This document shows positions 20,747-37,546 of a DNA stretch of 64,000 nt, piece by piece. The stretch covers positions 3,100,001 through 3,164,000 of the forward strand of contig NZ_CP064338.1 in the NCBI RefSeq assembly GCF_015476235.1, read 5' to 3'. Both the position numbers and the translations under genes were made by a program. Each line of letters begins with the position of its first letter. The first letter of the stretch is position 1. The DNA is from Caldimonas thermodepolymerans (GTDB taxonomy: Bacteria > Pseudomonadota > Gammaproteobacteria > Burkholderiales > Burkholderiaceae_C). The notes beneath the pieces were generated by a model. It was not told the DNA's origin. It did no database searches and saw only the letters and a program-made list of their open reading frames with translations.

Positions 20747-21778
20747 ATGTTGGACCCCCGCTTGGACGAGCGCTCCAGGTTGCTCTTGAAAGCGCTGGTG
20801 GAGCGCTACATCGCCGATGGTCAGCCGGTCGGCTCGCGCACGCTGTCCAAGGCGTCCGGACTCGAACTGTCGCCCGCGACCATCCGCAACGTCATGGCCG
20901 ACCTCGAGGAGCTCGGCCTGATCGCCAGCCCGCACACCTCGGCCGGCCGCGTGCCCACGCCGCGCGGCTACCGGCTGTTCGTCGACACCATGCTGACGGT
21001 GCGGCCGCTGGACGTGGAGGCAGCCCCGCCGGCGGTGGCCAGCCAGCTGCAGCCCGACCAGCCCAAGCGCGTGATCGCCAACGCGGCGCAGATGCTGTCG
21101 AGCCTGTCGCGCTTCGTCGGCGTCGTGACCACGCCGCGCAAGCCGTCGGTGTTCCGGCACATCGAGTTCCTGCGCCTGTCCGACCGCCGCGTGCTGGTGA
21201 TCCTGGTCGCGCCCGACGGCGACGTGCAGAACCGGGTGATCTTCACCGAGCGGGACTACACCGACTCGCAGCTGGTCGAGGCGACCAACTTCCTCAACAC
21301 CCACTACGCCGGGCTGACGATCGAGGAGGTGCGCGCGCGCCTGAAGGACGAGATCGACGCGCTGCGCAGCGAGATCGCCACGCTGATGCAGGCCGCCGTG
21401 CAGGCCGGCACCGAGGTGATGGCCGAGGACAGCGAGCAGGTCGTGGTCTCCGGCGAGCGCAACCTGCTGCAGGTGCAGGATTTCTCCAGCGACCTGGACT
21501 CGCTGCGCAAGCTGTTCGACCTGTTCGAGCAGAAGACCCAGCTGATGCGGCTGCTGGACGTCTCCAGCCGCGCCGAGGGCGTGCGCATCTACATCGGCGG
21601 CGAGAGCCAGGTGGTGCCCTACGAGGAGCTGTCGGTCGTCTCCGCGCCGTATGAAGTGAACGGCCAGATCGTCGGCACCCTGGGCGTGATCGGCCCCACG
21701 CGCATGGCCTACGACCGCATGATCCAGATCGTGGACATCACGGCCCGGCTGGTGTCGAACGCGCTCAGCCAGAAGTAG
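20747..21778 (+). CDS. hrcA: Heat-inducible transcription repressor HrcA
   Basis: Represses groE/dnaK operons by binding CIRCE elements; activity depends on GroEL. The winged-helix N-terminus [48 protein letters not shown] is clear. The C-terminal IYIGGES and [31 protein letters not shown] are also family hallmarks. Length 343 aa. No CIRCE inverted repeat was noticed upstream, so self-regulation is not supported here. It ends 45 bp before the tRNA used as the phage attachment site. Confidence 0.97.
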
Positions 21779-21823: not shown

Positions 21824-21862
21824 GGGCCGGTAGCTCAGTCGGTTAGAGCAGCGGACTCATAA
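21824..21862 (+). pseudogene. 5' half of the host tRNA (anticodon CAU), split by the prophage
   Basis: Acceptor 5' strand GGGCCGG, TA, D arm GCTC...GAGC, A26, anticodon-stem 5' strand GCGGA and loop CTCATAA (anticodon CAT at 21858-21860). The next bases (GCTGATGCG) do not continue a tRNA. The matching 3' half is at 56562-56606; joined, the two give a normal 76-nt-class tRNA with a G1-U72 pair, A73 and encoded CCA. It is either elongator tRNA-Met or tRNA-Ile2 (lysidine type). Sequence alone does not decide which. Confidence 0.9.
21856..21862 (+). other. attL core CTCATAA
   Basis: The anticodon loop of the host tRNA forms the left crossover; the same 7 bp are at 56562-56568. Reconstructed attP would be CACTAGC-CTCATAA-GCTGATG, and attB GCGGA-CTCATAA-TCCGT. 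In attB the anticodon stem supplies the inverted core-type integrase sites flanking the 7-bp overlap. A 7-bp overlap matches lambda-type tyrosine integrases. Confidence 0.85.
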
Positions 21863-21950
21863 GCTGATGCGTTTTGTCCCGACAGTGTCACGTAAGTCGT
21901 TGTTACTATTTGCATTTATCGACAAACAGCGCGTAGCTTCAGTGTTGACC

Positions 21951-21985
21951 TTTCCACGAACTTTCCGCTGCATAAGTTCGGTATA
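21951..21985 (+). repeat. Integrase arm-type repeat, left copy
   Basis: A 35-bp block opening TTTCCACGAACTTTCCG and ending GGTATA closely matches, in the same orientation, 56370-56404 (TTTCCGCGAACTTTCCG ... CCGTATA). One copy lies about 90 bp inside each att core, as expected for integrase arm sites of attP. Confidence 0.7.
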
Positions 21986-22006
21986 GACTGTGGGGCTGCG
22001 CACATA

Positions 22007-22094
22007 GGGCCGGACGCCGTGTTGGTTGCAGGCAGCGGACTCATAATCCGTCGACGAAAGTCCACCGTGGGTTCGAATCCCACCCGGCCTACCA
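22007..22094 (+). tRNA. Phage-encoded tRNA, anticodon CAU, with long structured variable arm
   Basis: Complete 88-nt cloverleaf. Acceptor GGGCCGG pairs with CCGGCCT, then A73 and encoded CCA. The D stem is GCC/GGC with a 12-nt loop containing GG. The anticodon arm GCGGA-CTCATAA-TCCGT is identical to the host tRNA. The T arm is GTGGG-TTCGAAT-CCCAC. The variable region (22052-22066) is 15 nt and folds as GAC-GAAA-GTC, a class II feature otherwise seen in Leu, Ser and Tyr tRNAs. Position 8 is A, where U is nearly invariant. The acceptor and anticodon arms copy the host tRNA that the prophage destroys, whereas D, variable and T arms differ. Most likely a replacement for the split gene. Confidence 0.8.
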
Positions 22095-22310
22095 CGATGT
22101 GCGGGGCGCGCTCAACCCTGGGCAAAACTCTTGCCCCACCCCACCCCCTGGCTCGTCCCCCTCACCGCCATGAGACGGGGTAGGGCTCGCGACATGTCGC
22201 GGTGCTTACGCTGCTATTTCTCGGCGAGCAGACATCAGCCGGCCCCGGTTCACTTCGGCCCCACGTAGTGCTGGCCGGCCCAGGGCTGCGAGCCGTACGC
22301 AGCCCTGTCA
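22095..22310. other. Non-coding stretch with a strong hairpin
   Basis: No convincing gene. A perfect 10-bp stem (CAGGGCTGCG / CGCAGCCCTG, 22281-22307) lies directly next to the terminator of the neighbouring minus-strand gene. At 22118-22137 the sequence GGGCA-N7-TGCCC resembles hairpins in the replicon region at 39.2-39.3 kb. Confidence 0.5.
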
Positions 22311-22339
22311 ACAAAAAGAAAATGGCGGCATCCGCCGCC
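22311..22339 (-). terminator. Rho-independent terminator at the left end of the phage minus-strand unit
   Basis: Minus strand GGCGGC/GCCGCC stem with a four-base loop followed by an A/T-rich tract (ATTTTCTTTTTGT). It lies 24 bp past the stop of the last minus-strand phage gene. Confidence 0.85.
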
Positions 22340-22362
22340 CTGAACTCTTACTTAGTGCACGA

Positions 22363-22710
22363 CTAGTGCAAAGCTTGCTCCCACGCTGCGTTGTTCTCAG
22401 CAGCAGCTGCCGCCAAAGCATGCGCTTCCCTGCGGGCACGCGCTGCGAGCAACAGCTTGCGAGCATCCTTCATCACGGTGTGCGACCAGGGCGCGCCCGC
22501 TTCCTTCGTGCATCGAAGGCTCGCGTAGCGCGCAGCGTGCGTCACTGCGCCGATGTCACCGTCAGCTACTTCGAGCAGGTCAGCTAGACGAACGTTGTTC
22601 ACATAGATTGTTGTCAGCTTGCCGCCTCCCGGCTTGAAGACACACACGCGGATGCCTGGCATCCCGCGGTGAGTTTTGACAGCAGTGTGTGCTTGGTTGT
22701 GCTCAGTCAT
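22363..22710 (-). CDS. Hypothetical phage protein
   Basis: A 115-residue protein beginning MTEHNQAHTAVKTHRGMPGIRV. The C-terminal half is helical and Ala/Arg-rich (KLLLAARARREAHALAAAAAENN). No recognised domain. ATG at 22710 is preceded by GGGAG seven bases upstream; a longer in-frame extension crosses a strong hairpin and is rejected. It is the last gene of the phage before attL, a common position for lysogeny-expressed cargo, and it has its own terminator. Function unknown. Confidence 0.65.
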   Translation of the reverse strand: MTEHNQAHTAVKTHRGMPGIRVCVFKPGGGKLTTIYVNNVRLADLLEVADGDIGAVTHAARYASLRCTKEAGAPWSHTVMKDARKLLLAARARREAHALAAAAAENNAAWEQALH

Positions 22711-22880
22711 TGTGGCGCTCCCTGGGTGTTGCTGTGAGCAGGTGGGTTCTCGTCGTATAGCGAGCATGTATATGCAGCTTGACGGAGGTCCAGGTGGGGA
22801 GGCTAAGCAGCGGCGCGGCCGACGAGACCGCTGGCAGGTCGTTGATTTATCGAAGAACGCGGGCCGGTGACTGAAGGGTG

Positions 22881-22907
22881 GGCCTGTTGTCGGCTGGACA
22901 ACAGGCC
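22881..22907. terminator. Strong hairpin downstream of the endolysin
   Basis: Perfect 11-bp stem GGCCTGTTGTC / GACAACAGGCC with a five-base loop, 21 bp beyond the endolysin stop. No T-run follows on either strand, so it may be a mRNA 3' stabiliser rather than an intrinsic terminator. The rest of 22711-22928 shows no gene. Confidence 0.55.
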
Positions 22908-22928
22908 TGTATATGAGGTGAGGGTTGG

Positions 22929-23396
22929 TCAGCGGCTCTTGGGCAGCTGAAAGTGTGGGCGGTCTTTGAACGTTTTCCAGTCCCCGCCCCATTCGAGACC
23001 GAGGCTGCGGCCGATGGCGCCGACTTTGTCCCAAGGCTCAGAGTCAGCCCATGAGGCCTTTCCATCACGCATGAAAGCAATGTCGAAAGCGCGTGACGCA
23101 GGGATGCCGTTCAGCGTCGCGTTGTGCTCCGATGAGCCGCCGCGCGCGTTCGTTACCCTAGGCTTTGAGGGCTCCGCCATCACGTGGCCGAGTCCCGCAG
23201 CGTTCAGTTGGGCTTGGGTGCGACCCTGCGCGTAGAGCATGTTCTGGTACTCAGTCGAGCGGAACGTCTGAGTCAAGAAGACGTCATAGCCCGCTGCGGC
23301 GCAGCGCTCAAGAAGCAGGCGGCACAACGGCTGCAAGTCGGGGTGCAGGTGTTCAATCTTGCGAGAGTTCAGTAGAAGCATCGGGGGAGCCCTCAT
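22929..23396 (-). CDS. Endolysin, L-alanyl-D-glutamate endopeptidase (M15 family)
   Basis: Peptidoglycan peptidase for host lysis. The 155-residue protein begins LLLNSRKIEHLHPDLQPLC, as T5-type endolysins do. It has QTFRSTEYQNMLYAQGRT, then the zinc-binding signature SEHN...ASRAFDIAF (His and Asp ligands) around residues 88-108 and the last His ligand in RPHFQLP at the C-terminus. There is no signal peptide, so release needs the holin at 48811-49107. ATG at 23396 has GGGGAG seven bases upstream. It lies at the tail end of the unit, 25 kb from the holin and spanins. Confidence 0.88.
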   Translation of the reverse strand: MRAPPMLLLNSRKIEHLHPDLQPLCRLLLERCAAAGYDVFLTQTFRSTEYQNMLYAQGRTQAQLNAAGLGHVMAEPSKPRVTNARGGSSEHNATLNGIPASRAFDIAFMRDGKASWADSEPWDKVGAIGRSLGLEWGGDWKTFKDRPHFQLPKSR

Positions 23397-23426
23397 AGAG
23401 TTGCTCCCCTGTCTAGAGACCTGGTG

Positions 23427-26138
23427 CTACGAAGTCAGGCGCCAGAAGTACTGATACGTAGCGCTGCGGACGGTGCCGCTACCTGACGGTCGCGCTGAAC
23501 GAACGCTCACACGCACGAGGCGTGCCCCTGTCGGGATGGTGCTGGTATTGATGGTTGCTTGGGACGCACCCGCAGCGGCTGACACGAAGCTATTGCTCGT
23601 GAACACACCTGAGCCGCCGGTAGTTTCCCAGTCCACGACGTACTCCACATACGCACTGGGTTCTGGGTCGTTCATCGCGCTAAACGCTGACTCACGAAGG
23701 GCGCTTAGGCGATTCCGGTTGCGCCAGGCAAGCAAAGCTGACGTGCTTCGAGAAATCTCGAGCGTGTTGTCGAGCGGGCTGGTACAGCCGAACCTGCTTG
23801 AAATCGTGACGTACGCAGGCGGCAGCGGCAGCACGCATCGAGACGGGTTGTACGTCTGCGCAGCAAGCGTTGCTTCAGTGTCTCCCGCGGCTTCATCGAA
23901 TGCCCAGACAGTGCCACCTGGGCCTCTCGTGTCTGCGCGCACGGCGACAGAAGTAACACCGGGAAGCGTCGGCCCCGACGTTGACAGACGGGTCTGCATG
24001 CGCACCTGGCCGACCGCATAGCCAAGGAGAAGCGTCACCTTCGTGCCAGCCTCATGACGCTGCGGAACAGTGTCAAACAGACCGCGTTTCAACGTCGAAA
24101 TCGTCAGCAGATTGCCACTCAGACTGAAGCCCGAGGCAGCCAGCCACTCCCCATCGACGATGGCCAGGACTTCCCCGCGAAGCCCCAGCGCGAGAAGCGC
24201 ATCACGCGCACCGTTAGTCAGGTTCAGCTTCGCAGAAGTGCCCGTAAGGTACGATGAAAGCACCGCATCAAGCGTACCCGAGACTGCGGGCGCAGCATAC
24301 TCACTTGCATACGTAGCACGCTCGTACGCCCACACGCTAACACCCTGCGCGACTGAGAGGCGGTACTGACGCGCGGCTGGAGACGTCGCTTCAGCGTAGT
24401 ACAACGGACGCTCGTACTCATCAAGCGACAGCGCGTACGGCGCGGCAACAAGTACGGGTGAGGTCACCGGCTCGGTGACTGAGGGCGCAGGCTCAGCAGG
24501 CACCTCGGGCGTGTCTTCGTACTCGATAGAGCCGTCGCGGAACACGTCTTCGATAGCCTCAAACTCCACTTGCTGGCGATTGTTGTAGTCGTTCCAGCGC
24601 GCAGTCGTGATGCGCATACGCAGTGCCTGGCCAAGCCGCTCATGAGCGACGGTCACAACGTCCCCGGGCTTCAGAATCGTACCCGCTGGCACCGTCGCAG
24701 TGAATCGAACTTGCATCAAACTCGCAGCGAGACTACGCAGCGTGCGAGTTGCAAGCAGCGAAGCGACTCGAGAGTTCGAGACACCGATGAACTCCTCTTC
24801 GCGCGAGATGACTGTCCCGACCTGCTGCACAAGCGCCGTGTTCTTCGCCACCGCACGGCGGGTGTCGAACTGCATCGCGCGGTCCGAGTACGGAACTTGA
24901 ATCTCGTTAGGCGCTTCGTTCGTCGTAGTGCGCGTAGCGCTCGCGAAGTTGACGATGTTGCTGCTATCGAACGTGTACACAGACTCGTCGCTCTCGCGAA
25001 TGAGACGCAGCGACAGCACGCCGAGACGCTCGTGAATGTGCAGCGTAGCATTGATTTGCTTGCAGACGTCGCTGATGACGTCGCCGACACTGCGAGACTT
25101 TTCCCACGCGAAGGACACACCCATGCCTTCGCTCTTAAGCTTCTCAGCAGCACGCATGAAAGAGCCCCAATCAAGGGCGAAGGGCGACAGGCGTGGACCA
25201 ACGTACTGCGAGCGTGCGCATAGCAACTCTGCGATGACGAACGCGGGGTTCGCGTCGCCGCCGATGTCAGCGACGCTGTCTATGAAGCTGTTGATGTAGG
25301 ACTCGAGCGTGCCACTACCGTCGAAGGGGCCGGTCAGGGGGTACGCATACCCGCGGGATGCGCTGTTGAACAAGTTCCCGTGAAAGGTGTGCAGAATCGT
25401 CTTGACGTCGGGCAAGCGCTTCAGGATGACTTGCAGTGCTGGAATGTGCGGCGACGACCCGACGAATCCAGAGCGCTTGTGCGTGCGCTCGTAGAATTTG
25501 TTCAGCAAGCCGCCGCCTGGGCCGCCGTCTAGGTAGCCGGAAGATGGGCCGAGGAGCACAACGTGACAGATGTCCGGGTAGCTGGGGACTTCTGACACGC
25601 CAAGCTGCCCCGCAACGTACGGATTGGGCAACGGTGCCGGGTTTCCCGTCTGATAGTCGTTTCGCGACTGGTTGTAAAAGCGCAGCACCCCAGCGATGCC
25701 ATCCTCAATCTCCTGGCCCTCGGATGCGGCGTAGGAGTAGTTCAGCATCAAGTCAGTGGTCGTAGTCCGCGAGAGTGTCAGCGTACCCTTCCACGCGGTC
25801 CGGTCGCCCCAGAGCACCCCCTGGACAGAGTCACACGGGCAGTTCGCGAGTGTCAACCACATACCGATGTGATACTTGTAGCCTAGTGTGCGCTCAGCAC
25901 TGCTGAACCAGCCTGTGCTAACTTCTTCAGAGACTTCATTCGCGTAGTAGTCACCAACCCAAATGAGGTTTCCAGCCACTGGGACGGTCCCAAAAATCAT
26001 GGGCAGCGAACGGTCTTCTGTCGCCGTGGGCAGCGAGAACTCGTTCAGACCATAGCGCTTGGGCTTCGGTATGTCAGGCTTTGGCGCTAGCAGCTGCAGC
26101 GCGATGTTTGCGATAAGGAAGACGACGAACGACAGCAT
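23427..26138 (-). CDS. Tail-tip / host-specificity protein (phage-tail_3 type)
   Basis: A 903-residue baseplate-hub protein. The N-terminus MLSFVVFLIANIALQLLAPKPDIPKPKRYGLNEFSLPTATEDRSLPMIFGTVPVAGNLIWVGDY-like region is typical of the GTA / PF13550 tail proteins: a hydrophobic start, then the barrel that caps the tail. A middle part (about residues 330-560) resembles the gp44/gpJ hub fold with an Arg/Val-rich segment, and the C-terminal 200 residues are beta-rich and may contact the receptor. Position at the end of the tail operon fits a tip or central-fibre role. Exact fold assignments are inference. Confidence 0.8.
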   Translation of the reverse strand: MLSFVVFLIANIALQLLAPKPDIPKPKRYGLNEFSLPTATEDRSLPMIFGTVPVAGNLIWVGDYYANEVSEEVSTGWFSSAERTLGYKYHIGMWLTLANCPCDSVQGVLWGDRTAWKGTLTLSRTTTTDLMLNYSYAASEGQEIEDGIAGVLRFYNQSRNDYQTGNPAPLPNPYVAGQLGVSEVPSYPDICHVVLLGPSSGYLDGGPGGGLLNKFYERTHKRSGFVGSSPHIPALQVILKRLPDVKTILHTFHGNLFNSASRGYAYPLTGPFDGSGTLESYINSFIDSVADIGGDANPAFVIAELLCARSQYVGPRLSPFALDWGSFMRAAEKLKSEGMGVSFAWEKSRSVGDVISDVCKQINATLHIHERLGVLSLRLIRESDESVYTFDSSNIVNFASATRTTTNEAPNEIQVPYSDRAMQFDTRRAVAKNTALVQQVGTVISREEEFIGVSNSRVASLLATRTLRSLAASLMQVRFTATVPAGTILKPGDVVTVAHERLGQALRMRITTARWNDYNNRQQVEFEAIEDVFRDGSIEYEDTPEVPAEPAPSVTEPVTSPVLVAAPYALSLDEYERPLYYAEATSPAARQYRLSVAQGVSVWAYERATYASEYAAPAVSGTLDAVLSSYLTGTSAKLNLTNGARDALLALGLRGEVLAIVDGEWLAASGFSLSGNLLTISTLKRGLFDTVPQRHEAGTKVTLLLGYAVGQVRMQTRLSTSGPTLPGVTSVAVRADTRGPGGTVWAFDEAAGDTEATLAAQTYNPSRCVLPLPPAYVTISSRFGCTSPLDNTLEISRSTSALLAWRNRNRLSALRESAFSAMNDPEPSAYVEYVVDWETTGGSGVFTSNSFVSAAAGASQATINTSTIPTGARLVRVSVRSARPSGSGTVRSATYQYFWRLTS

Positions 26139-26146
26139 TGCTTATG

Positions 26147-27148
26147 TCAGCCCTTTAGGCCGCTCTCGAAGACGTTCTTGATAGGTATGTATGGGTAGCC
26201 CCCGAAATTCGCGAAGTTGTTGAACTTCGACTTGCACGTCGAGGCTGTCAGATTGCAGCCGGCAAAGACCGTCACCTTAGTGCCGGGCTCAACGGGTGTA
26301 AGTAGTGGCGCAGAGATGTGCAGAAGCTGACCGGTGTGCGACGTTATGTGACGTCGATACCCGCCCAATAGACCCGCATAGCGCGCAGGAGCAGTCCCGA
26401 TAAACGTGCCCGCGCGGGGCTGGTGAACCCACAATAGCTTGTAGTCCGGGTCGATAGCGATGAAGCCTTCGTTAAAAAATCCATTCCCTCGATTAGCGGC
26501 TTCGGGAACGCGCAGCGTCAAACCGCCATTCAATACTTCTGCTAAGAATCCGTCCTCTCTAAACGCAAAGTACGAGCCAGCTATCGCATGGCGATTGACG
26601 CCGCACCCCGGTGGCGGGCTGTAAAGCGTGTGCCCACATGACCTCGGATGCTTGCGTGTCAGCCCCGGGCGGCGCAGTACAGTCGACAGATGTGAGCATT
26701 TCAGCGTCGCCGTCGGGGCGCTGTACTCAGCGCTGTGGACACGCCCAGTCCACTGCACCACTGGTGCAGGGTCTGCATCGTCAAGCGCGAGAACGGTCAA
26801 CCACACCTGAGCCGCCGGGGCTTCATATGCGAACAACTGAGCGACGGGGTGGTCAATGGGCAGCGTGAGCGATAAGTCGCCGCTGCTCTGTTCTTCGTTC
26901 AGTTGTACGCCGCTATGCGAGATGCCCGGGACTGGGTCGAACTGATGGTCAGTGCCCTCAACGGTACCAGACTGCGGGGCAGACAAGAACGAAGACCAGT
27001 AGTCCCTGGGCGCGTCGAACCGAATCGGGCGCTCGAAGTTCGTCATCAAGTAGACGCGGCGCTGCTCTTCGTAGCTTGCCACGTCTGCTAAAACATTAGA
27101 GAGAAGCGCGTCGACGGGGAGAACGTCGACGATGTATAGGTACTTCAT
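26147..27148 (-). CDS. Tail assembly protein, DUF2163 / BR0599-like
   Basis: A 333-residue distal-tail protein. The cysteine pattern RSCGHTLYSPPPGCGVNRHAI (about residues 190-210) and the C-terminal GCNLTASTCKSKFNNFANFGGYPYIP match the BR0599 / DUF2163 module found in GTA-like and siphophage tail tips, where the cysteines coordinate a metal cluster in relatives. It is nine bp upstream of the tail-tip gene and its start overlaps the stop of the next upstream gene. Confidence 0.78.
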   Translation of the reverse strand: MKYLYIVDVLPVDALLSNVLADVASYEEQRRVYLMTNFERPIRFDAPRDYWSSFLSAPQSGTVEGTDHQFDPVPGISHSGVQLNEEQSSGDLSLTLPIDHPVAQLFAYEAPAAQVWLTVLALDDADPAPVVQWTGRVHSAEYSAPTATLKCSHLSTVLRRPGLTRKHPRSCGHTLYSPPPGCGVNRHAIAGSYFAFREDGFLAEVLNGGLTLRVPEAANRGNGFFNEGFIAIDPDYKLLWVHQPRAGTFIGTAPARYAGLLGGYRRHITSHTGQLLHISAPLLTPVEPGTKVTVFAGCNLTASTCKSKFNNFANFGGYPYIPIKNVFESGLKG

Positions 27149-27993
27149 TCTTCAATCTCCAGGAATTCAAGTTCGACGCGTGCTAACGATGGACGCAGAT
27201 AGTCGATAGACACGGAGTCGGTGTTCAAGCGCCAGACACGCTCGAAGCCGTCAGGTTCGAACGTGTATCTGAAGGGTTTGCATCGGCCCCGCAGAGTGAA
27301 GACCAGACGCCGGAAGTCCAAAATCGCTGGCCGCCCGATGAGCAACAAAGAGACAGAGATGACGCGTTTCGAGTAGCGCACCTCGCGCAGCGTCCTGTGC
27401 CCGAAGTCCGCACTGTCGAAGAAGTCATCAACGCGCTCGCTAGCTTCTGTAGACCAATCAGCGCGGACTGGCCACACGGGCTTACCGTCAAGAGCGACCT
27501 CGCCTCCCCAAGGCGCGATAGCTTCGTCGAGGTCCTCGACAGTGAACGACATCACAGCAGATGAGACACCGGCGCTGTGATGCGTGATGGTTCGCGAGGG
27601 GGCGATACGCCCCTCAGTGCAAGGATAGATTGCAGCAGAGAGCGGCCACTCGTAACGCGGTGCGCTCACCAATACGTACGTGCCATTCTTGCGGCGCGAA
27701 AGATATACAGAACCTGCCCCCACGCCGGCGTCCGCGGCGGTCGCCTCAGCGGGAAGCTGATGCATCGCCAGCGGGAATACCACGCGGTCTGCGTAGCGCA
27801 AGACGTCGCGCTGAGCCCTGGCCTGGTCATCAAGAAACGTGAACTGACTCGTGTACGTGCGGCGAGGAAACGCGCGCAAGGGGACGCGACGTTCGGTGCC
27901 ATTCAGGGCAATCGAAACGTCCGTCAAGAACTCAAGAGTCTCAGTTCGCGGACGGGACCCGTCGGGGAGGAGAGTCAGTAGCGGAGTGGTCAT
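27145..27993 (-). CDS. Putative tail structural protein
   Basis: A 282-residue beta-rich protein. The start is MTTPLLTLLPDGSRPRTETLEFLTDV and it contains YTSQFTFLDDQARAQ and SISLLLIGRPAILDFRRL-like strands (here VISVSLLLIG). The segment LRGRCKPFRYTF near the C-terminus resembles distal-tail components of GTA-like phages. Placed between the tape measure and the DUF2163 gene, where distal tail proteins are expected. A preceding TATCTACACA tract 3-12 bp before its AAGAG site resembles the recurrent phage promoter motif. Confidence 0.6.
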   Translation of the reverse strand: MTTPLLTLLPDGSRPRTETLEFLTDVSIALNGTERRVPLRAFPRRTYTSQFTFLDDQARAQRDVLRYADRVVFPLAMHQLPAEATAADAGVGAGSVYLSRRKNGTYVLVSAPRYEWPLSAAIYPCTEGRIAPSRTITHHSAGVSSAVMSFTVEDLDEAIAPWGGEVALDGKPVWPVRADWSTEASERVDDFFDSADFGHRTLREVRYSKRVISVSLLLIGRPAILDFRRLVFTLRGRCKPFRYTFEPDGFERVWRLNTDSVSIDYLRPSLARVELEFLEIEE

Positions 27994-28032
27994 CTCTTTG
28001 TGTAGATAGCGACCACGCCAGGCGGTGGGTGC

Positions 28033-28581
28033 TCAGGCGCGCAGCAGAACTTGCCTGGTGCGTGGGCGATGCTTCATGAGCCAGAGCAGAGCCCCGGCGA
28101 GTTGCTCATCAGTCATCGTCCCGGTGATGAGTGGAGCGTCCTCAGGCTTGATGTGCAGCCGCTCCGCCGTGGTACTTACCAATGCTGCGCGTTGCGCCGG
28201 TTGCAGCCCTACAACTTGGCCAGACACTACGCCCTCCAGCACGCGGCGGTCGCGCTCTTCGTCTTTCCCGAGCCGCCACCCCTCAACAGCTTGGCAGGTC
28301 TGCCGGGCCAGCTGACACATCTCGCGGTAGTGCGGCAACACTGCTTTCGCTGCGACAGCCATAGCCGACACGTCAGTCTCAGAGCGACCCACATAGCACG
28401 TCAGCTGAAACGGCTGTTCGGGGCTTGCCCGCTTGCGGGGTGCAATCTTGACGCTGTCAGTCGACAGCTTGAACGTGTTTGACAGCGCATCTCGCGCATA
28501 CGCTGCGTGCCGCTCGACGAGCGGGAGCGTAAGGGCGCTTGCATCGAACGCGTAGTACACAGACTGAACAGTCTTTTCCAT
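28033..28581 (-). CDS. Hypothetical tail-region protein
   Basis: A 182-residue soluble protein without recognised domain. The N-terminal part is MEKTVQSVYYAFDASALTLPLVERH, and the C-terminal half is helical (EDAPLITGTMTDEQLAGALLWLMKHR). Start choice: an AGGAG site sits five bases before the second of two adjacent ATG codons (28581), better than the first (28584). It lies between tape measure and distal tail genes, with its own promoter-like motif 32 bp upstream. Confidence 0.65.
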   Translation of the reverse strand: MEKTVQSVYYAFDASALTLPLVERHAAYARDALSNTFKLSTDSVKIAPRKRASPEQPFQLTCYVGRSETDVSAMAVAAKAVLPHYREMCQLARQTCQAVEGWRLGKDEERDRRVLEGVVSGQVVGLQPAQRAALVSTTAERLHIKPEDAPLITGTMTDEQLAGALLWLMKHRPRTRQVLLRA

Positions 28582-28612
28582 CATTGCTCCTGTTGTGTGC
28601 GTGTGGATGCTG

Positions 28613-28633
28613 TGTATAGATAGAACTTTTATA
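28613..28633 (-). promoter_or_regulatory. Recurrent phage motif TATAAAA-N5-ATCTATACA
   Basis: On the minus strand TATAAAA, five bases, then ATCTATACA; 32 bp upstream of the start at 28581. The same two boxes with identical 5-bp spacing recur at 50606-50626, and in weaker form at 40730-40750 and 42226-42246. Probably a phage promoter. No -35 hexamer at normal spacing is apparent. Confidence 0.6.
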
Positions 28634-28735
28634 CGGTCGCACAAAACAAGCCACGACCGCCAAGGCAGCCGGGGCCTAACCACACACACAGGAGGAACAA
28701 CAGACAGCAGCGCTGTCACTGTCTATAGCGACTGC

Positions 28736-31700
28736 TCACGTACCCCAGGCGCCACGAATTCGCTTACCGTTGTCGCCGACGATAGCGATGACTGCGCGCT
28801 GGAACGCGCTCTCTTTCGCGAGAGCGTCAGCGACTTGCCCAGCCGCAATGGTCACCGTCGGCGAGACTTCGATATTCGCATTCACGGCCGAAGCTTGCGT
28901 AGTCAAAGCCCCCGCGAGCCCTTGGCCGCCCCCTACCAAGCCGCCGGTGGCAAACGCAGGTAGCTTGCCGTAAGTATTCATGAAGTTGAGTCTGTCGAGC
29001 CCCAGCGCGCGCACTGCAGACGCGCGCAGCACGTACTCACCGTTCGACAGCCGCGCAAGAATGCTGTCGCTCGTCCCGGTGCCGGGACCGCGAACCGCAC
29101 CACCCTCGGCGAACCCGAACATCGACAATCCCGCAGAGAGCAGACCGCCCAGCCCCCCGCCGGACCCCCCAAAACCGCTCATCAAGTTGCCTACAAGCTG
29201 GCTCAGCGCGAGTTCAGACAGCTTGCTCAGGACGCTGCTGATGACACTCTTCAGCACATCGCCGAACGACTTGGCACCCGAAATGAGGTCTTGAAAGCCC
29301 TGCTTGATGGAGCCAAAGAACGACTCATTGATGCTCACTGCGACAGAGTCGAGCGTGCCGGCAAGTTCGCGATATCGCTGCTCGAGTTCGATAGCTTGTG
29401 CGATAAGGGCCGGGTCCCCGCTCGCAATGGCCAGTTCCTTAGCAGCGCGCACAGACTCCTCAAGCGCAGCAGCTGACGCGAGGCGCGCATCGCGGATAGC
29501 GCGCTCGCCGTCCAGCTGCGTTCGAAGTCCTGCCTCAACTTCGCGGTTAATGCTGTCTTCCTGGGCAGTAAGACTGCTCTGCACAAGCCCCGCCTGCTTA
29601 CTGACGTCATCAAAACGCAGTCTGTTTGCGCTCAGCGCAGCTTGCTCACGTACCAGCGCCTCAAGTTCAGCGTTGCCGGCAACACGACGGTCCTGCAGCA
29701 AGCGCTCAGTCTCTTTGCCCAGCCGCAGAAGCGCAGCTTCGAGCGTCTGGCCCTTCGCGTCAAGAATATTCGCGCGTATGTCAACTCTAAGGTCCGCGAC
29801 GTCGCGCTCAAACTTCCAGACATCTAGCTTCAGCTTGGCGTCAATGAGTACTGACTTCTGGCTCAGCGCGAAGAGTTCAGCTTCAGCCTTGGCGATGTCC
29901 GCTTGCAGCCGCTTCACACCCGTGTCGTCAGTCTCGTGCGCGAGTTCAGCGCGCAGCTGCGCGAGATGCTGTCGCTGAGCAGACATCTCATCATCGAGCG
30001 AAGACTTCTCCAGCTTCGCCTTATCATCAAGGTACGCGCGATAGGTAATCAAGTGCTGCTCGAGACGCGCGTCGAGCGCTTGCGACTCGATTTCGCGCAC
30101 AGCTTGAGCGCGCTTGACAGCAGCTTCAGTCTCTGCGCGCAGCAAGTCTTGCAGCGCTTTGCGAGCGCGGCGTGCATCGTCCGCGGGCTTGTCCTTTGTC
30201 TCTTTTGCCGGGGCCTTCAGTGGCGTCGAAGTGCCAACGCTGACGCCCGCCATGAAATCGCGGCCCGCCTGCTCGGGGTCGTACGCGTCAGCGTAGCTGG
30301 TGTCCGGAGCGCGACGCTTCTCGCGCGCTTTGAAGAACTCATCCAGGGCGCGCGGGGCGCTCTTCAGCGCCTCGAGGTCCTTGCGAAGCTTCTCTGGGTC
30401 GGGCAGCGCGTTGGCAGCATCAAGCACAACCTGATTGACGCTGTGCCCAATGCCCGGTATTTCGCGCATGAAGCGCGACAGCAAGCGCAGCGCTTCTTGG
30501 AGCGGCTCAACCAACCAGTCAGCCAGGGCTACGCCAACTTCACCGACGGCTATGCGCAAGCGCGTGAACGTGTCGTAGATGGCAGCGACGACGATAGAGA
30601 TAGCGTCCATCGCGGCTTCGATGAAGCCAGACTTGACGAGCAAGTCACCCGCACCGGCTACTAGCTTAGCGACGACGCCCGCCAAGTCGAGCACAAGCTT
30701 GACGACGTTACCAACCGCTGTAGCGATAGCCTCGACAGTCGACCGGTTCTCAGACAGCCAAGCGCTGAATTCTTTGACCAGGTCGAGCACACCTGAGATA
30801 GCTGACGAAAGGGCCTTGCCGAGCGCATCGAACGCTGTCGCAGCCATGCTCTCGATGCCCTTGAACTCGTGCGCAAGGTCGAGAGAGTCGCCATCAAAGA
30901 TGCCGTCCAAGGCACTCTGCAGGGACTTCTTGACCCCCTCAAAAGCGCCCTTCGTCATCTTACCCAGAACGGCATCGAAGCCTTCGCTCAAGTTCGAGAG
31001 CGTAGCTGTCCACGTAGCCGAGGTTTCGGGGCTCATCTCCCGGAAGGTCTCGAGCCGCTTGCCGAGTTCTTCAGCGAGCGTCCCAGCTTCGCGCCACGCT
31101 TTCAGGTTCTCAGATGTGACGCCTGATGCTTCAAGAGCCTTACCGACCGTAGAATCTGCGGTGATTTGTGCGGAGATGATGGAGCGAACTTCTTGATTGA
31201 GTTGTTCCATCGGCACGCCTAGAGCCGCGGCGGCTTGGGTGATGCGGAGCATGAGTTCCATGCTCTCATCGAGCGTCAAGCCCGCGCTTGAGCCTGCACC
31301 GATGGCTTGCGTGTAAGCAGCGCTCAACTGCTCGAAAGTCGCAGACGTCTGCAGACCGAGCAAACGCAGCTTCTGCATCTGCTTCTCTGCTAGCTGCCCC
31401 GCAATCGCCAGCTTCTCGGGCCCGGTCGCGAGAGTCCCAGCTGCGTCGCGAACTTCTGTCAGCGACGCAATGAGCGACTTGATGCCGAGAGTTGCAGTCT
31501 CGACGCCAGCGTTGACTTCAAAGCCCTTCTTGAGCGCAGCGCCGGCCGCTGCCGCGGCAGCGGAGACAGCAGCGAGCACCGCGACAAGCGCTCCAGCTGC
31601 GGTAGTAGCGCCGCGTATGCCCTGGGCCATTCCCCCGAAATCAGGGCCCGAGCCCGCGGCGGCCGGCTTGACAGCGGAGAGACTGTTGAAGCCGTCAAGC

Positions 31701-31768
31701 AGCTGCTTGATAGCTTGCTGCGCTTGCGCGGTGTCGACTGTGACTGTTAGAGAAGCTTTGTCTGCCAT
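28736..31768 (-). CDS. Tail tape measure protein
   Basis: A 1010-residue tail-length ruler and DNA-ejection protein. The N-terminus SLTVTVDTAQAQQAIKQLLDGFNSL is followed by a hydrophobic segment TTAAGALVAVLAAVSAAAAAAGAALKKGF. Long alpha-helical, coiled-coil stretches run through residues 100-800. The C-terminal region FFGSIKQGFQDLISGAKSFGDVLKSVISSVL and the Gly-rich end (GGSGGGLGGLLSAGLSMFGFAEGG) are typical of lambda gpH-like proteins. Its ATG overlaps the GT stop (TAATG). Confidence 0.95.
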   Translation of the reverse strand: MADKASLTVTVDTAQAQQAIKQLLDGFNSLSAVKPAAAGSGPDFGGMAQGIRGATTAAGALVAVLAAVSAAAAAAGAALKKGFEVNAGVETATLGIKSLIASLTEVRDAAGTLATGPEKLAIAGQLAEKQMQKLRLLGLQTSATFEQLSAAYTQAIGAGSSAGLTLDESMELMLRITQAAAALGVPMEQLNQEVRSIISAQITADSTVGKALEASGVTSENLKAWREAGTLAEELGKRLETFREMSPETSATWTATLSNLSEGFDAVLGKMTKGAFEGVKKSLQSALDGIFDGDSLDLAHEFKGIESMAATAFDALGKALSSAISGVLDLVKEFSAWLSENRSTVEAIATAVGNVVKLVLDLAGVVAKLVAGAGDLLVKSGFIEAAMDAISIVVAAIYDTFTRLRIAVGEVGVALADWLVEPLQEALRLLSRFMREIPGIGHSVNQVVLDAANALPDPEKLRKDLEALKSAPRALDEFFKAREKRRAPDTSYADAYDPEQAGRDFMAGVSVGTSTPLKAPAKETKDKPADDARRARKALQDLLRAETEAAVKRAQAVREIESQALDARLEQHLITYRAYLDDKAKLEKSSLDDEMSAQRQHLAQLRAELAHETDDTGVKRLQADIAKAEAELFALSQKSVLIDAKLKLDVWKFERDVADLRVDIRANILDAKGQTLEAALLRLGKETERLLQDRRVAGNAELEALVREQAALSANRLRFDDVSKQAGLVQSSLTAQEDSINREVEAGLRTQLDGERAIRDARLASAAALEESVRAAKELAIASGDPALIAQAIELEQRYRELAGTLDSVAVSINESFFGSIKQGFQDLISGAKSFGDVLKSVISSVLSKLSELALSQLVGNLMSGFGGSGGGLGGLLSAGLSMFGFAEGGAVRGPGTGTSDSILARLSNGEYVLRASAVRALGLDRLNFMNTYGKLPAFATGGLVGGGQGLAGALTTQASAVNANIEVSPTVTIAAGQVADALAKESAFQRAVIAIVGDNGKRIRGAWGT

Positions 31769-32435
31769 TAGAGGGGAATCGCGTCCGGGGTTTGTCTAGT
31801 CGTGTAGCTAGCCCACTTGTCAGACAGCGCTCCGCTAGCGTCTGCGAGTGCGCGCTTGTAGTGTTCCGCCGCGCGTCCAGCCTCGCCACCAAATGCGCTG
31901 GCTATAGCCGCCTGCATGTCGCTCAACGCGCTAAGGCGACGCTCCGCTTCGTCGCGGAGATGCTGCTCATAGAGACTGGCTAAGATGCGTGGAGGGAGCG
32001 CTTCGACGTCTTGAAGCGCCAGGACGCGCCTTGATACCAGGCGCGTCGCGACGTCGTCGATGCTTAGTTGCTCTCCGAGCCCGCCGCTGCTGCTCCCAGC
32101 TTGCTCAGCGCGGGCATCAGCTTTTTTGCGAACGACTCTTTGTTGACGGCGATGACAGCGGAGAGAAGTCCAACACCCTCGTCGACGCTAAGAGTGTCGA
32201 GCCAGCTTCGGGGCTTGCCAGCGGCGAGTGCTAGGATAGCCATCACGTCTTCGCCGCCCTGAGCGATTAGTTGCGGCAAGTTGATTTCGCCGGATGGGCC
32301 GATGCTCGCGTTCGAGAAGACGGCGGCCAGGTGCTTAGCGACGGTCGGTATTTGGCCGAAGCCAAACTCACGTACGGTGATAGATTCGCCACCCACTTCG
32401 ACAGTGGCGGTCAGGGGCAATAGCTTCGAAGTCAT
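31768..32435 (-). CDS. Tail assembly chaperone GT, produced by -1 ribosomal frameshift
   Basis: Extended form of the G chaperone. At the slippery heptamer A_AAA_AAG (32121-32127, the same as in E. coli dnaX) a -1 shift changes ...FAKK|LMPA to ...KK|ADARAEQAGSSSGG and opens a 120-residue extension. The extension contains ATRLVSRRVLALQDVEALPP and LYEQHLRDEAERRLSALSD, and ends TRQTPDAIPL. The shifted frame has no stop until 31768-31770, which overlaps the tape-measure ATG. This reproduces the lambda gpG/gpGT arrangement between tail tube and tape measure. The T part has no start codon or ribosome-binding site of its own. Confidence 0.85.
32064..32435 (-). CDS. Tail assembly chaperone G
   Basis: Zero-frame product of 123 residues beginning MTSKLLPLTATVEVGGESITVREFGFGQIP, ending KLGAAAAGSESN. 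In lambda the equivalent gpG coats the tape measure during tail assembly. ATG at 32435 is preferred; another in-frame ATG at 32453 lies in the foot of the upstream terminator. It lies directly downstream of the tail tube gene and its terminator, so expression needs read-through or a promoter not seen. Confidence 0.85.
   Translation of the reverse strand: MTSKLLPLTATVEVGGESITVREFGFGQIPTVAKHLAAVFSNASIGPSGEINLPQLIAQGGEDVMAILALAAGKPRSWLDTLSVDEGVGLLSAVIAVNKESFAKKLMPALSKLGAAAAGSESN
32121..32127 (-). other. Programmed -1 frameshift heptamer A_AAA_AAG
   Basis: Minus strand GCA-AAA-AAG in the G frame, giving the canonical X_XXY_YYZ slip site. The -1 frame is open for 120 codons downstream, and the zero frame for 19 codons. 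Confidence 0.85.
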
Positions 32436-32456
32436 CGTGTGTGGTCCGTACATATG

Positions 32457-32489
32457 AAAAAACGGGGCAGCCCTTCATGGGCTACCCCG
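32457..32489 (-). terminator. Terminator after the tail tube gene
   Basis: Minus strand CGGGGTAGCCC / GGGCTGCCCCG imperfect 11-bp stem with a five-base loop and six Ts. Such an attenuator after the tube gene lets the abundant tube protein be made in excess over downstream tail genes. Confidence 0.88.
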
Positions 32490-32520
32490 TATAGGGACCA
32501 GCTGTGGGCCGAATGCGGCC

Positions 32521-33222
32521 TTACTTGCTGTCGTACACGACGGCGAAGCGACCCAGGGGGCCTTCAGGCAGCGTCTCGTCCAGGAGCACCGGACCCTCAA
32601 GCACGGGCGCAGCGAACTCATTCGAGATGAGTTCAAACGCCGAAGCGGGGTTGGGCTTCCATCGGTGGATGACGATGGTCTTTCCCGTTCGCTCAGACAC
32701 ATAAGTCACTTCGTACTCATCGCCATCGGTCGTAAACACGCCCAGCGCCTGGGCCTCGCCGGCATCGTACGTGCCAGCAGCAGACGCCGCGATGTCCTTC
32801 AGCGCGACGACGACGCCCCCCGCTGCGAGCACCTTGAAGTCTTCCCCCTCAGTGAGGTCTTCGATTTCAACGTCGGAGACGTTGACGTGTGGCAGCTTGA
32901 ACATCTCGCCATCCTTCAGCGCGGGCAGCGTGAAGGTCTGAGCAGTGGCCTCAGCTTGCGCCTGCACAGTACCGTACAGATACATTGCGAGGTTGCGCGC
33001 CTCAAGGTTGTTACCCGTGATTGACAGGGTCGCGGACTTGCTCACTTCTTCTACAGCCAGGTCACCGGACTCATTGCCGCTCGAGCGAAGCGTCACAGTC
33101 TCGCGAGTCATGCTGAACGTCGCGGCAGCGGCATTTCCGAAGTAAAACGGCTTCGCAGTGGGGTCAGAGCGCTTGCGAATGAAGAAGTCGCCCTTCAAAG
33201 AGTAGTACTGTGGTTTGGACAT
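32521..33222 (-). CDS. Major tail tube protein
   Basis: A 233-residue structural protein starting MSKPQYYSLKGDFFIRKRSDP. The pattern of a beta-rich N-terminal tube domain (ATFSMTRETVTLRSSG, ESATLSITGNN-like) followed by a beta-sandwich (YEVTYVSERTGKTIVIHRWKPNPASAFELI) is typical of siphophage tube proteins. Its position between the tail terminator and the G/GT chaperones, and the strong terminator behind it, support the call. Confidence 0.82.
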   Translation of the reverse strand: MSKPQYYSLKGDFFIRKRSDPTAKPFYFGNAAAATFSMTRETVTLRSSGNESGDLAVEEVSKSATLSITGNNLEARNLAMYLYGTVQAQAEATAQTFTLPALKDGEMFKLPHVNVSDVEIEDLTEGEDFKVLAAGGVVVALKDIAASAAGTYDAGEAQALGVFTTDGDEYEVTYVSERTGKTIVIHRWKPNPASAFELISNEFAAPVLEGPVLLDETLPEGPLGRFAVVYDSK

Positions 33223-33277
33223 TGCTTACCTTGCAAGGTTGTTAACAGAGAGCACAGTTCCGGAGTGCTTGTCTTGT

Positions 33278-33706
33278 TTAGCGACCACCGCGGGTGTAAA
33301 GCGTCGTGTCAACAGAGAACAGCAGCGCGTACTCGCGCAAGGTCCCGCCGTCGTAACTCTCAGGGTCGGTACCCTGAAGTTCTAGGCTTCCGAACCCATC
33401 CCCTGGGCACCAGCCGTGCAGCGCCTGCACAATGGACATGAGCAACTGCCCTTCCTCAACGCTTCGCTCTTTCGCCCCATGACCACGAATGAACAAAGAC
33501 ACACTCCAGCGGCTCTCGAGCAGCACTGCGAAGTCGTTGCTGTCTTTCCTGCTGTCGCCCTGGAAAGCCACCACGGCGGTTGGCTCCACGGTGTTGAAGA
33601 GAGTCTTGTCATCAGCGTCGGTGACGCTTATGACAGCGAGGCTAGGGATAGTTCGCAGGCGCTCAAGCAGTAGTGGTTCGAGCGCGAAGTACGTATCAGT
33701 CTGCAT
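33278..33706 (-). CDS. Tail terminator / Gp37-like protein
   Basis: A 142-residue protein beginning MQTDTYFALEPLLLERLRTIP. In phages the terminator protein ends tail-tube polymerisation and joins the head. The N-terminal helix and the AVVAFQGDSRKD / SVSLFIRG strands fit that small alpha/beta fold. Gene order (gpG-like, this gene, tail tube) is the standard one. The assignment rests mainly on size and position. Confidence 0.65.
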   Translation of the reverse strand: MQTDTYFALEPLLLERLRTIPSLAVISVTDADDKTLFNTVEPTAVVAFQGDSRKDSNDFAVLLESRWSVSLFIRGHGAKERSVEEGQLLMSIVQALHGWCPGDGFGSLELQGTDPESYDGGTLREYALLFSVDTTLYTRGGR

Positions 33707-33709
33707 TTG

Positions 33710-34183
33710 TCAGTCCTTAGCTGCCTTGCGCAGCTGGTAGCGCAGCGCGTTGAGTACATAGTTTTCGTCCGACTTAGCCAGGCCGCGCCGGGTGCCGAGG
33801 CGCGAGAAGAGAAAGGCGCGCCGTGGGAGCCGTCCATGCTTACCGTCTGGCTGCTCGTGATACTTGCCGTAGTCAGTGCCGATAACCGCGCGCAAGTCTC
33901 TCCGGCCAGGTATGAAGCGCGTCTTGTCTCGCAGCTGACGGGTGTCGAGCATCAGCCTCCGCCGGGGGTGCTTGCGATTCGCGGCTGCCGTGCTTGGCGC
34001 CCAGGGTGCCCAGCGTCCGCCATCAGGGTCGCGCTTGAAAGCGAAGCGATACCAGACGCGCCGAGTCAACTCTTTCGCGGCGTTCTCGAGCGCTGGGCGC
34101 AAGTCAGTGAGAGCAGCGCGCAGCTTCTCCAGCCGCCGATTGACAGGCGCCAAATTAGCTTTGACTTTGAGACCGTTCGCCAT
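33710..34183 (-). CDS. Virion morphogenesis protein (Mu gpG-like)
   Basis: A 157-residue basic protein related to the phage virion morphogenesis / tail-completion family (PF05069-like). The segment RVWYRFAFKRDPDGGRWAPWAPSTAAANRK with RRLMLDTRQLRDKTRF and YGKYHEQPDG is the family hallmark (RFxxxxDPdGxxWxp...LxxTGxLr...YGxxHq). It connects head and tail. It is 12 bp from the DUF1320 gene and three bp from the terminator gene. Confidence 0.8.
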   Translation of the reverse strand: MANGLKVKANLAPVNRRLEKLRAALTDLRPALENAAKELTRRVWYRFAFKRDPDGGRWAPWAPSTAAANRKHPRRRLMLDTRQLRDKTRFIPGRRDLRAVIGTDYGKYHEQPDGKHGRLPRRAFLFSRLGTRRGLAKSDENYVLNALRYQLRKAAKD

Positions 34184-34195
34184 AGCAGCCTCCGC

Positions 34196-34621
34196 TTACC
34201 AGCTTTTCAGCTGGTCGCGCTGCATGCGCCGCTGGGCGCTCCCGCACTCAGCGACGTAGGCTAGGCCGCTCTCGTCCTCAGGCGTCGTCGGGTCATCAGC
34301 CGGCATCGGGAGCGCAAGCTTGCGAGCAGCGACTCCCGACAAGAACTTGATAGCGTCCTCCGCGCGGTCGCGCATCAGTTCAGACGCTGCATCGCGGAAG
34401 AGACGGTAGCGTGCCAAGTCTGCTGCGGCGGCCTGCACGACCTTGATAGCAGCTTCGCTTGGAGGCAGAGGGACCGCGGCGCCGACGTACGCGTCGATTT
34501 CCTGGTTGATGCCGTCCAGGAATGCTTCGAAGTCGACACCCGTTGTCGTGACGACTTTGGCGATGGAGGCTTCGCCGAAGGTCTCATACATGATTTCGGG
34601 GGTTAGGTACTGTGTCGGCAT
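34196..34621 (-). CDS. DUF1320 head-tail connector (Mu gp36-like)
   Basis: A 141-residue helical adaptor protein. The N-terminus MPTQYLTPEIMYETFGEASIAKVV and the following DGINQEIDAYVGAAVPLPPSEAA-like helix match DUF1320. The segment AAADLARYRLFRDAASELMRDRAEDAIKFL is also typical. In Mu-like phages this protein joins the portal to the tail. Located between the capsid and morphogenesis genes, as in Mu. Confidence 0.8.
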   Translation of the reverse strand: MPTQYLTPEIMYETFGEASIAKVVTTTGVDFEAFLDGINQEIDAYVGAAVPLPPSEAAIKVVQAAAADLARYRLFRDAASELMRDRAEDAIKFLSGVAARKLALPMPADDPTTPEDESGLAYVAECGSAQRRMQRDQLKSW

Positions 34622-34645
34622 TCAAAACCGTGCTCTTTGATGTGC

Positions 34646-34870
34646 TCAGATTCCGTGCGCGACGCCAAGCGCTTCCATCGCTCGCAGCGTCTCAAGGGCA
34701 GAGCAGTCTGTCGGTACGCCACACTCGCGGCACAGAGCGAGCAGGTTGCGCTTCATGCGTCTGCGCTCGCTGCGCTTGTGGCCAGATGCGATGAGCGTGC
34801 GCTCAACGTGCTCAGAGAACGTCTCAGTAGCGGCAGCAGCCTCAGCGGCGCTGGTAGGGCGAGTCTTCAT
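34646..34870 (-). CDS. Small hypothetical phage protein
   Basis: A 74-residue helical, basic protein (MKTRPTSAAEAAAATETFSEHVERTLIASGHKRSERRRMKRNLLALCRECGVPTDCSAL). Two Cys-rich spots (CRECGVPTDC) could bind a metal. No family recognised. It sits between the phage tRNA and the connector gene. Confidence 0.55.
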   Translation of the reverse strand: MKTRPTSAAEAAAATETFSEHVERTLIASGHKRSERRRMKRNLLALCRECGVPTDCSALETLRAMEALGVAHGI

Positions 34871-34897
34871 GTGCAGTCCCGGTGCGTTTGGTGGGGG

Positions 34898-34970
34898 GGG
34901 CGGGAGTGGGACTCGAACCCACGACCTCCAGGTAATGAGCCTGGCGCTCTACCAACTGCGCTATCCCGCT
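34898..34970 (-). tRNA. Second phage-encoded tRNA, anticodon CAU
   Basis: Minus strand: acceptor AGCGGGA with TCCCGCC (position 1-72 is A-C, a mismatch), TA at 8-9, D arm GCGC-AGTTGGTA-GAGC, perfect anticodon stem CCAGG/CCTGG, loop CTCATTA, T arm GTGGG-TTCGAGT-CCCAC. CCA is not encoded. T at position 37 is unusual. It lacks the three G-C pairs of initiators, so it is elongator-like. It sits in a gap between the capsid terminator and the 74-residue gene. Confidence 0.8.
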
Positions 34971-35008
34971 CTTTGTGTAGTCACTCACTGCGCACAGGCG
35001 TGAACATG

Positions 35009-35031
35009 AAAAAGCCCCGCCGCGGCGGGGC
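35009..35031 (-). terminator. Terminator after the capsid gene
   Basis: Minus strand self-complementary GCCCCGCCGCGGCGGGGC followed by five Ts, 33 bp past the capsid stop. Confidence 0.85.
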
Positions 35032-35063
35032 TGTGGATGGCCTCTTCTATGGCCTCTTAGCAG

Positions 35064-36047: not shown

Positions 36048-36082
36048 TGGTTAATCCCAGAGTTAGGTGAATGAGAAGGGGG

Positions 36083-36610
36083 TTACTCGGAGGCACCTGC
36101 GACGTACACGTCTTCAGAAACCCCCACAACCTTCGTGAGGTACTCTTTCACTGCGTCAGTCAGCGCTACATCTTGCGAACCCGCAGCAGGCGCTTGAGCA
36201 GTCTTGTCTGCCGACAGAACCGCCGGTGCAGCTTCCATCGCAGCGGTGAACGCAGCAACATCAGCGCGGGCAAACTTCAGCATTGCTTCGCGCTGGGCGG
36301 GGGTAATCTTGCAAGCAGCGATAGCCGCGTCGACCGCAGCAACAGCAGCCTGGTCGGCGGCGGCAGCTTTGAAAGCCTGTAGTTCAACTTTGAGCGCAGC
36401 GACTTCAGCTTGAGCAGCGCTCAGCGCCTGGCTGGTCTCGCCAGACTTTGCGGCGAACGCAGTAACGTCGTCGACGCCAGCGGCTGCAAACGCAGCAGCA
36501 GCTTCGTCAGCTTTCGTCTTCGCCGCAGTCAGCGCAGTGATTGCGTCAAGCACAGCCGCTTCGTCAGCGTCCGCGGCGAGACCGAGTTGGTCGAGAATTT
36601 TTGCGAGCAT
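36083..36610 (-). CDS. Scaffold protein from internal start (Mu gpZ-like)
   Basis: In-frame internal ATG at 36610 (MLAKILDQLGLAADADEAAV) has a strong AAGGAAG site five bases upstream. It would yield a 175-residue helical scaffold identical to the C-terminal part of the protease. Mu makes gpZ the same way from within I. Confidence 0.65.
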   Translation of the reverse strand: MLAKILDQLGLAADADEAAVLDAITALTAAKTKADEAAAAFAAAGVDDVTAFAAKSGETSQALSAAQAEVAALKVELQAFKAAAADQAAVAAVDAAIAACKITPAQREAMLKFARADVAAFTAAMEAAPAVLSADKTAQAPAAGSQDVALTDAVKEYLTKVVGVSEDVYVAGASE

Positions 36611-37328: not shown

Positions 37329-37345
37329 TGGAAGGGAGGTTGCTA

Positions 37346-37543: not shown

Positions 37544-37546
37544 TTG

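Follow-up and report, generated by a model that had tools for sequence, protein, structure and literature searches.

Lysogeny in which the integrating phage disrupts a host tRNA gene and depends on a tRNA of its own has been described as tRNA-dependent lysogeny (Guerrero-Bustamante and Hatfull 2024; PMC10865867). Stable lysogens need the phage tRNA in such systems, and phages deprived of it form clear plaques. The targets include tRNA-Ile2 genes, and the Gordonia phages OneUp and Mollymur, for example, use tRNA-Ile2-CAT (PMC10865867). Related reports exist from rhizobia (PMC11476347, PMC12429752). The Lactobacillus Lj965 and Mesorhizobium Lo5R7ANS-like prophages are also reported not to rebuild the tRNA and to bring a cognate one (cited in PMC10865867 and PMC12429752), and the citing sentences mention no class II substitute. 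The prophage of Caldimonas thermodepolymerans described here resembles the Gordonia systems (PMC10865867) in its tyrosine integrase, an attB located in a tRNA gene, a short common core, the lack of a rebuilt tRNA at the junction and a phage tRNA of the same apparent isotype. In sequence it differs from them in its host, a Burkholderiales relative rather than an actinobacterium, and in the class II form of its substitute, which has an A8-U14 combination. The first-pass annotation of this DNA had proposed a compensation device. A phage-borne replacement of the disrupted host tRNA(CAU) and a genuine class II arm are supported, but the strategy itself had already been published (PMC10865867). What appears to be new is how the substitute is shaped and that it occurs in viruses, on plasmids and in bacterial chromosomes. 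No description of a class II tRNA-Ile2 was found in the literature searched, including passages of PMC7609411 and PMC8450103, which is no proof of absence; nor was any example of a long arm or U14 in an isoleucine tRNA found there.

The window, which is the whole stretch of 64,000 nucleotides analysed (3100001-3164000 of the single-contig genome of 3,858,501 bases), contains a prophage with terminase, portal, head, tape measure and tail genes, and an integrase at its attR end (PHROGs and Pfam; Table 1). The Pfam Phage_integrase score of the latter falls just below the cut-off of 27.1. The host tRNA(CAU) gene following hrcA is cut by the prophage at the anticodon loop, with the attP/attB common core comprising only 7 bp, CTCATAA, which is the entire loop. 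When the flanks are joined an intact 77-nt tRNA results, and the attL or attR junction alone yields no tRNA. The tRNA(CAU) gene is intact at the hrcA site in all eight of the same-genus genomes compared, and U72 is likewise present in the host genes of all eight. Judging from the sequences of the junctions, integration breaks the host tRNA(CAU) gene, which is rebuilt at neither of them. A BsuBI/PstI-type restriction endonuclease and methylase and a Schlafen/AlbA_2 protein are encoded between the integrase and the phage genes (50923-54760, minus strand), and a transposase-like rve integrase gene (57027-58166, minus strand) occurs soon after attR.

Table 1. Coordinates of the features of the window that relate to the split tRNA gene and the prophage
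Feature	Position	Strand	Evidence
hrcA of the host, the next gene upstream of the split tRNA	20747..21778	+	Pfam HrcA, 233 bits
Host tRNA-Ile2 (most likely isotype), 5' half; last bases are the core CTCATAA (attL)	21824..21862	+	Sequence; intact tRNA when joined with the 3' half
Host tRNA-Ile2 (most likely isotype), 3' half; first bases are the core CTCATAA (attR)	56562..56606	+	Sequence
Prophage, ~34.7 kb between both core copies	21863..56561		PHROGs matches; core copies
Class II tRNA(CAU), phage-borne, proposed replacement tRNA-Ile2	22007..22094	+	ARAGORN; Rfam 46.0 bits; family covariation
Tyrosine integrase, 515 aa from the listed TTG, true start uncertain	54811..56358	-	PHROGs, E 1.1e-19; Pfam Phage_integrase, 25.8 bits
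Candidate arm-type integrase sites near attL, two CTTTCC/ACTTTCC motifs	21950..21967	+	Motif listing; function inferred
Candidate arm-type integrase sites near attR, repeated CTTTCC motifs	56369..56427		Repeats and motif listing; function inferred

Just inside attL, with 144 bases separating it from the end of the core (21862), ARAGORN recognises an 88-nt tRNA gene with the anticodon CAU and an encoded CCA, the Rfam tRNA score of which (46.0 bits; E 1.2e-6) exceeds the gathering value of 29. It shares its acceptor stem (GGGCCGG/CCGGCCT, G1-U72 included) and its anticodon arm with the split host gene when the latter is read across attL 21824-21862 and attR 56562-56606, and 22 nt around the anticodon are identical; the D-loop is quite different. 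The variable region of 15 nt (C-GAC-GAAA-GTC-CACC) forms a 3-bp arm, which is present in the minimum-energy fold, with the fold energy being weak evidence alone since its z value is -1.73 and 14/200 shuffles fold equally well. Position 8 is A and position 14 is U, such that A8-U14 replaces the usual U8-A14. U8 and A14 occur together in 44/45 other distinct tRNAs of the Caldimonas genome, the lone exception being tRNA-Sec, the numbering of which is shifted by an 8-bp acceptor. The D-arm further contains a G13.A22 mismatch. No sigma-70 promoter for the gene was found in a consensus scan. The gene, its arms shared with the disrupted host tRNA, the folding of its variable region and the odd A8 had all been noticed in the first-pass annotation and are borne out here, while the U14 partner had gone unmentioned.

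Relatives were collected with two patterns. The first, which fixes the acceptor stem and A8, gave at least 191 matches (at least 119 in genome contigs and 72 in viral contigs). Eleven of the 191 lacked a T-loop motif and were left out before counting, and the motif is present in at least 180 matches (at least 108 genome loci and 72 viral loci). The matches listed are of two kinds, 38 distinct class I sequences with a length of 77-79 nt and 34 distinct class II sequences with a length of 86-90 nt, with U14 found in 34/34 of the distinct class II forms and A14 kept by 35/38 of the distinct class I forms. The second, a D-arm pattern, requires U14 and places no constraint on position 8 or the acceptor. 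It gave 82 stretches, and the eighty examined contained 35 tRNAs (ARAGORN), all with the anticodon CAU, with varied acceptor stems and, as read from the list, all with A8; beyond these 35, it also found the intron-bearing tRNA of L314. Across 40 distinct 88-nt relatives, 99.4 % of the pair cells are standard and 18 of the 25 pairs change on both sides, as does each of the three pairs of the variable arm, which is paired in 40/40. The 15-48 pair covaries (G-C in 25 and A-U in 15 relatives) and A8-U14 is invariant (40/40). None of 500 shuffles reached any of the five measures used, in a control that leaves the relatedness of the sequences uncorrected. One T-stem pair is missing in 6/40 relatives, which counts against the model.

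A chance fold or pseudogene is ruled out by the Rfam score and the family covariation, and positions 22007-22094 represent a real tRNA gene. The class II CAU tRNA family is common to phages, plasmids and chromosomes; in INPHARED there was no record in which one place covered 80 % of the query. Many other phages and bacteria combine this acceptor stem and anticodon arm with the same class II body, so that none of these parts need come from this host. The suggestion that identity elements of the host tRNA had been grafted onto a different body is consequently not supported in that form, and capture of the gene from this host is likewise unsupported. The pattern ending CCGGCCTACCA was found in the window genome only, among 399 genomes of the order, and the relatives mostly end CCGGCCCACCA; U72 looks to be the feature of the class II tRNA that is matched to local hosts.

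A search of the Caldimonas genome with RF00005 gave 51 matches. The CAU tRNAs comprise the elongator Met (acceptor GGCGCTT, with C3:G70 and G4:C69), the initiator Met and two phage genes, one of which is the class II tRNA. The anticodons include Ile-GAU, UAU is absent among the tRNAs found, and a tilS gene is present. On tRNA-Ile2, E. coli TilS contacts C4:G69 and C5:G68, and Burkholderia TilS (BcTilS) contacts G3:C70 together with the D-loop (PMC12514573). All three pairs occur in both the host tRNA and the class II tRNA; the strongly deviating D-loop of the class II tRNA counts against its recognition by a TilS of the Burkholderia type. Given these contacts, and given that no Ile2-type tRNA besides the split gene and the class II tRNA turned up in the genome, the split gene is most likely tRNA-Ile2, the reader of AUA. 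The same contacts and elimination narrow the class II tRNA to the same apparent isotype, which would make it the most likely replacement for the broken gene. It resembles ordinary bacterial tRNA-Ile2 in its CAU anticodon, CTCATAA loop, A73, G3:C70, C4:G69 and C5:G68, but differs from the ordinary form, with its class I variable region and U8-A14, in its 15-nt arm, A8-U14 and G13.A22 mismatch. A short variable region and U8-A14 are customary in tRNA-Ile2 but do not determine which codon it reads. The second phage tRNA(CAU), encoded beside the major head gene of the same prophage (34895-34971, minus strand), could be proposed as the true substitute, with the class II gene being something else, as it is accepted by ARAGORN and scores 57.3 bits with Rfam. 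However, it has C3:G70 and G4:C69 in place of the TilS contacts, its loop is CTCATTA (U37), it has an A1-C72 mismatch and CCA is not encoded, making this alternative very improbable.

It is therefore highly probable that the prophage practises tRNA-dependent lysogeny, with the class II tRNA as the replacement for the broken AUA-reading tRNA-Ile2. In the mechanism proposed, the integrase would recombine the 7-bp core, the anticodon loop of the host tRNA-Ile2(CAU) gene, breaking the gene, and the class II tRNA inside attL would supply AUA reading. TilS would form lysidine at C34 via G3:C70, C4:G69 and C5:G68, and IleRS would then charge the lysidine-bearing tRNA. Leucine determinants include A73 and A14, and U8:A14 is crucial for one bacterial LeuRS (PMC9976931). 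With A73, a tRNA of class II would be open to charging by LeuRS. The most speculative step of the mechanism is that the A8-U14 inversion would keep the long-armed A73 tRNA away from LeuRS, and in this way may block leucylation.

The class II body might conversely direct leucine or serine charging, with AUA or AUG recoded in the lysogen or during infection. The long variable arm, A73 as in tRNA-Leu and a Ser-like D-arm (host Ser-TGA GCCGAGTGGTTGAAGGC vs phage GCCGTGTTGGTTGCAGGC) are compatible with such recoding. The tRNA nevertheless combines U14 with A73, unlike tRNA-Leu (A14, a LeuRS determinant, and A73) and tRNA-Ser (G73, for SerRS; PMC9976931), and retains the TilS contacts. In addition, a search of several genomes found no Ile2-type tRNA other than its relatives, and recoding there would hit every AUA. 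Recoding is thus considered highly unlikely. Atypical aminoacylation, which had been suggested in the first-pass annotation, is possible, and U14 with A73 fits avoided mischarging better than new charging.

Five other elements split tRNA-Ile2 at the same anticodon loop, each with a CAU substitute of differing type, two of them intron-bearing. In Piscinibacter caeni a ~10-kb element carries a 79-nt A8 tRNA 111 bp inside attL, and a 33-kb element of Rivibacter subsaxonicus has an A8 tRNA in mid-element; a tyrosine integrase lies beside the junction in both. The 31-kb element of genome G674, the integrase of which is 37-39 % identical to that of the window, brings an ordinary tRNA-Ile2 that is interrupted by a group I intron of 205 nt (52.5 bits with Rfam), and no other intact CTCATAA tRNA-Ile2 turned up in this genome. 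The IMG/VR contig L314 contains hrcA, the split 5' half and a class II tRNA in which a related intron, also of 205 nt, is inserted (43.9 bits, under the 50-bit cut-off and absent from the gathering-level listing). L488 has the split 5' half and, 159 bp on, an ordinary CAU tRNA with another anticodon stem; for L314 and L488 the available stretch covers the attL side only. Among the 120 matches listed in the split-gene survey, 114 were intact tRNAs and six were not, these being L314, L488 and four others with no substitute within the available stretch. L472, one of these four, probably represents an intact gene truncated where the stretch ends. Integrase relatives at E 1e-30 or better were found in one other of 399 family genomes, and the integrases of genomes G592 and G108 have no significant match to that of the window. 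Many tRNA matches, some of them weak, occur in less than 2 kb of G674 (C106, 39497-41209), perhaps a mobile tRNA array.

The group I intron of Azoarcus sits in a tRNA-Ile gene. Introns of this type are also found in tRNA-Ile2 of Acidovorax and Burkholderia, in genes missed by tRNAscan-SE (PMC8450103). As distinct from these, the intron-bearing copy in G674 and L314 is the substitute on the element that split the host copy. The 205-nt introns follow U36 in the substitute tRNAs (L305, 4917-5198; L314, 862-1154) and interrupt the CTCATAA att core, an arrangement that might shield the substitute against the integrase of its own element. The class II tRNA of the window, unlike the tRNA-Ile2 genes of PMC8450103, has no intron. 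In the five parallel cases the anticodon stem of the substitute differs from that of the host or is intron-cut. With 22 nt around the anticodon identical to the host gene, the window tRNA could itself serve as attB, a role similar to one speculated upon by the authors of PMC10865867 for their plasmids.

Among the matches listed, 85 of the 108 genome loci (62 of 88 nt and 23 of 77 nt) place the A8 tRNA ~109-329 bp after rpoD on the same strand, a position observed in 2/72 viral loci. Class II relatives follow rpoD in Paraburkholderia, Ralstonia and Caballeronia, and an ordinary U8 tRNA-Ile2 occurs within ~60 bp after rpoD in four genomes, three of them Cupriavidus and the fourth from a different family of the order. 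Clustering of the flanks gave one upstream cluster of 93 loci and many small downstream clusters. No remnant of the 5' half of the native tRNA was seen in the rpoD spacers (0/87; criterion of at most 1/100 shuffles as good), and displacement at rpoD, as judged from position, is thus putative, as is takeover by integration. The hrcA site of Aquariibacter (L134) and that of a MAG (L149) are each occupied by a class I A8 tRNA, and no split tRNA copy was seen in either. An ordinary tRNA-Ile2 was not found in nine of 12 other genomes with an A8 tRNA, using a pattern that needs AGC at the D-stem start and could miss odd tRNAs, in genomes of which ~11 are drafts of unstated completeness; one of the nine (G592) has a further CAU tRNA of unclear type. 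Both tRNAs are present in the remaining three, all Cupriavidus. Ten plasmid records contain a match (nine Cupriavidus and one Paraburkholderia, the latter match covering 66 %). On large Cupriavidus plasmids, for example at NC_005241.1 194008-194095, no feature is listed at the class II CAU tRNA, the plasmid gene table being without RNA genes.

When ORFs were chosen by length only, AUA accounts for 2/6302 codons in the host part of the window left of the prophage, 0/1742 right of it and 31/9019 in the prophage, the last being ~10x the left-hand host value. AUA being very rare in the host part, the need for an AUA-reading tRNA may be small, and its higher frequency in the prophage suggests that the class II tRNA may serve lytic growth too. 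The gene could thus be an ordinary lytic-phase tRNA for AUA-rich phage genes, with its position at attL incidental and the lysogen managing with little AUA reading. Many viral contigs do contain family members, with lengths that in some cases exceed 100 kb, and B. cenocepacia grows despite strongly reduced lysidine formation (PMC10128029). Yet in that organism tilS is held to be essential even at 0.6 AUA per 1000 codons (PMC10128029), the five other tRNA-Ile2-breaking elements also bring CAU substitutes, of different types, and a family member is the only Ile2-type tRNA found in 9/12 genomes. A purely lytic function is therefore improbable, and the lytic and lysogenic roles are in any event compatible rather than mutually exclusive.

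Replacement of the broken tRNA-Ile2 by the class II tRNA remains the preferred explanation, and it extends tRNA-dependent lysogeny into the Burkholderiales. Several elements, with at least three integrases that are hardly alike, converge on one essential tRNA with different substitutes. A wider reading, plausible but somewhat short of probable, is that isoleucine tRNAs include a new structural class (class II, with inverted A8-U14), which has spread on phages and other mobile elements, replaces the broken host tRNA-Ile2 and has permanently displaced the native gene at rpoD in Paraburkholderia, Ralstonia and relatives, with the inversion acting as an antideterminant for leucyl-tRNA synthetase. 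Should the family indeed read AUA, the long-armed tRNAs would extend beyond those for Leu, Ser, Tyr and Sec, and a gene family travelling on mobile elements would have taken charge of an essential part of translation. How TilS, IleRS and LeuRS discriminate such a tRNA thereby becomes a testable question.
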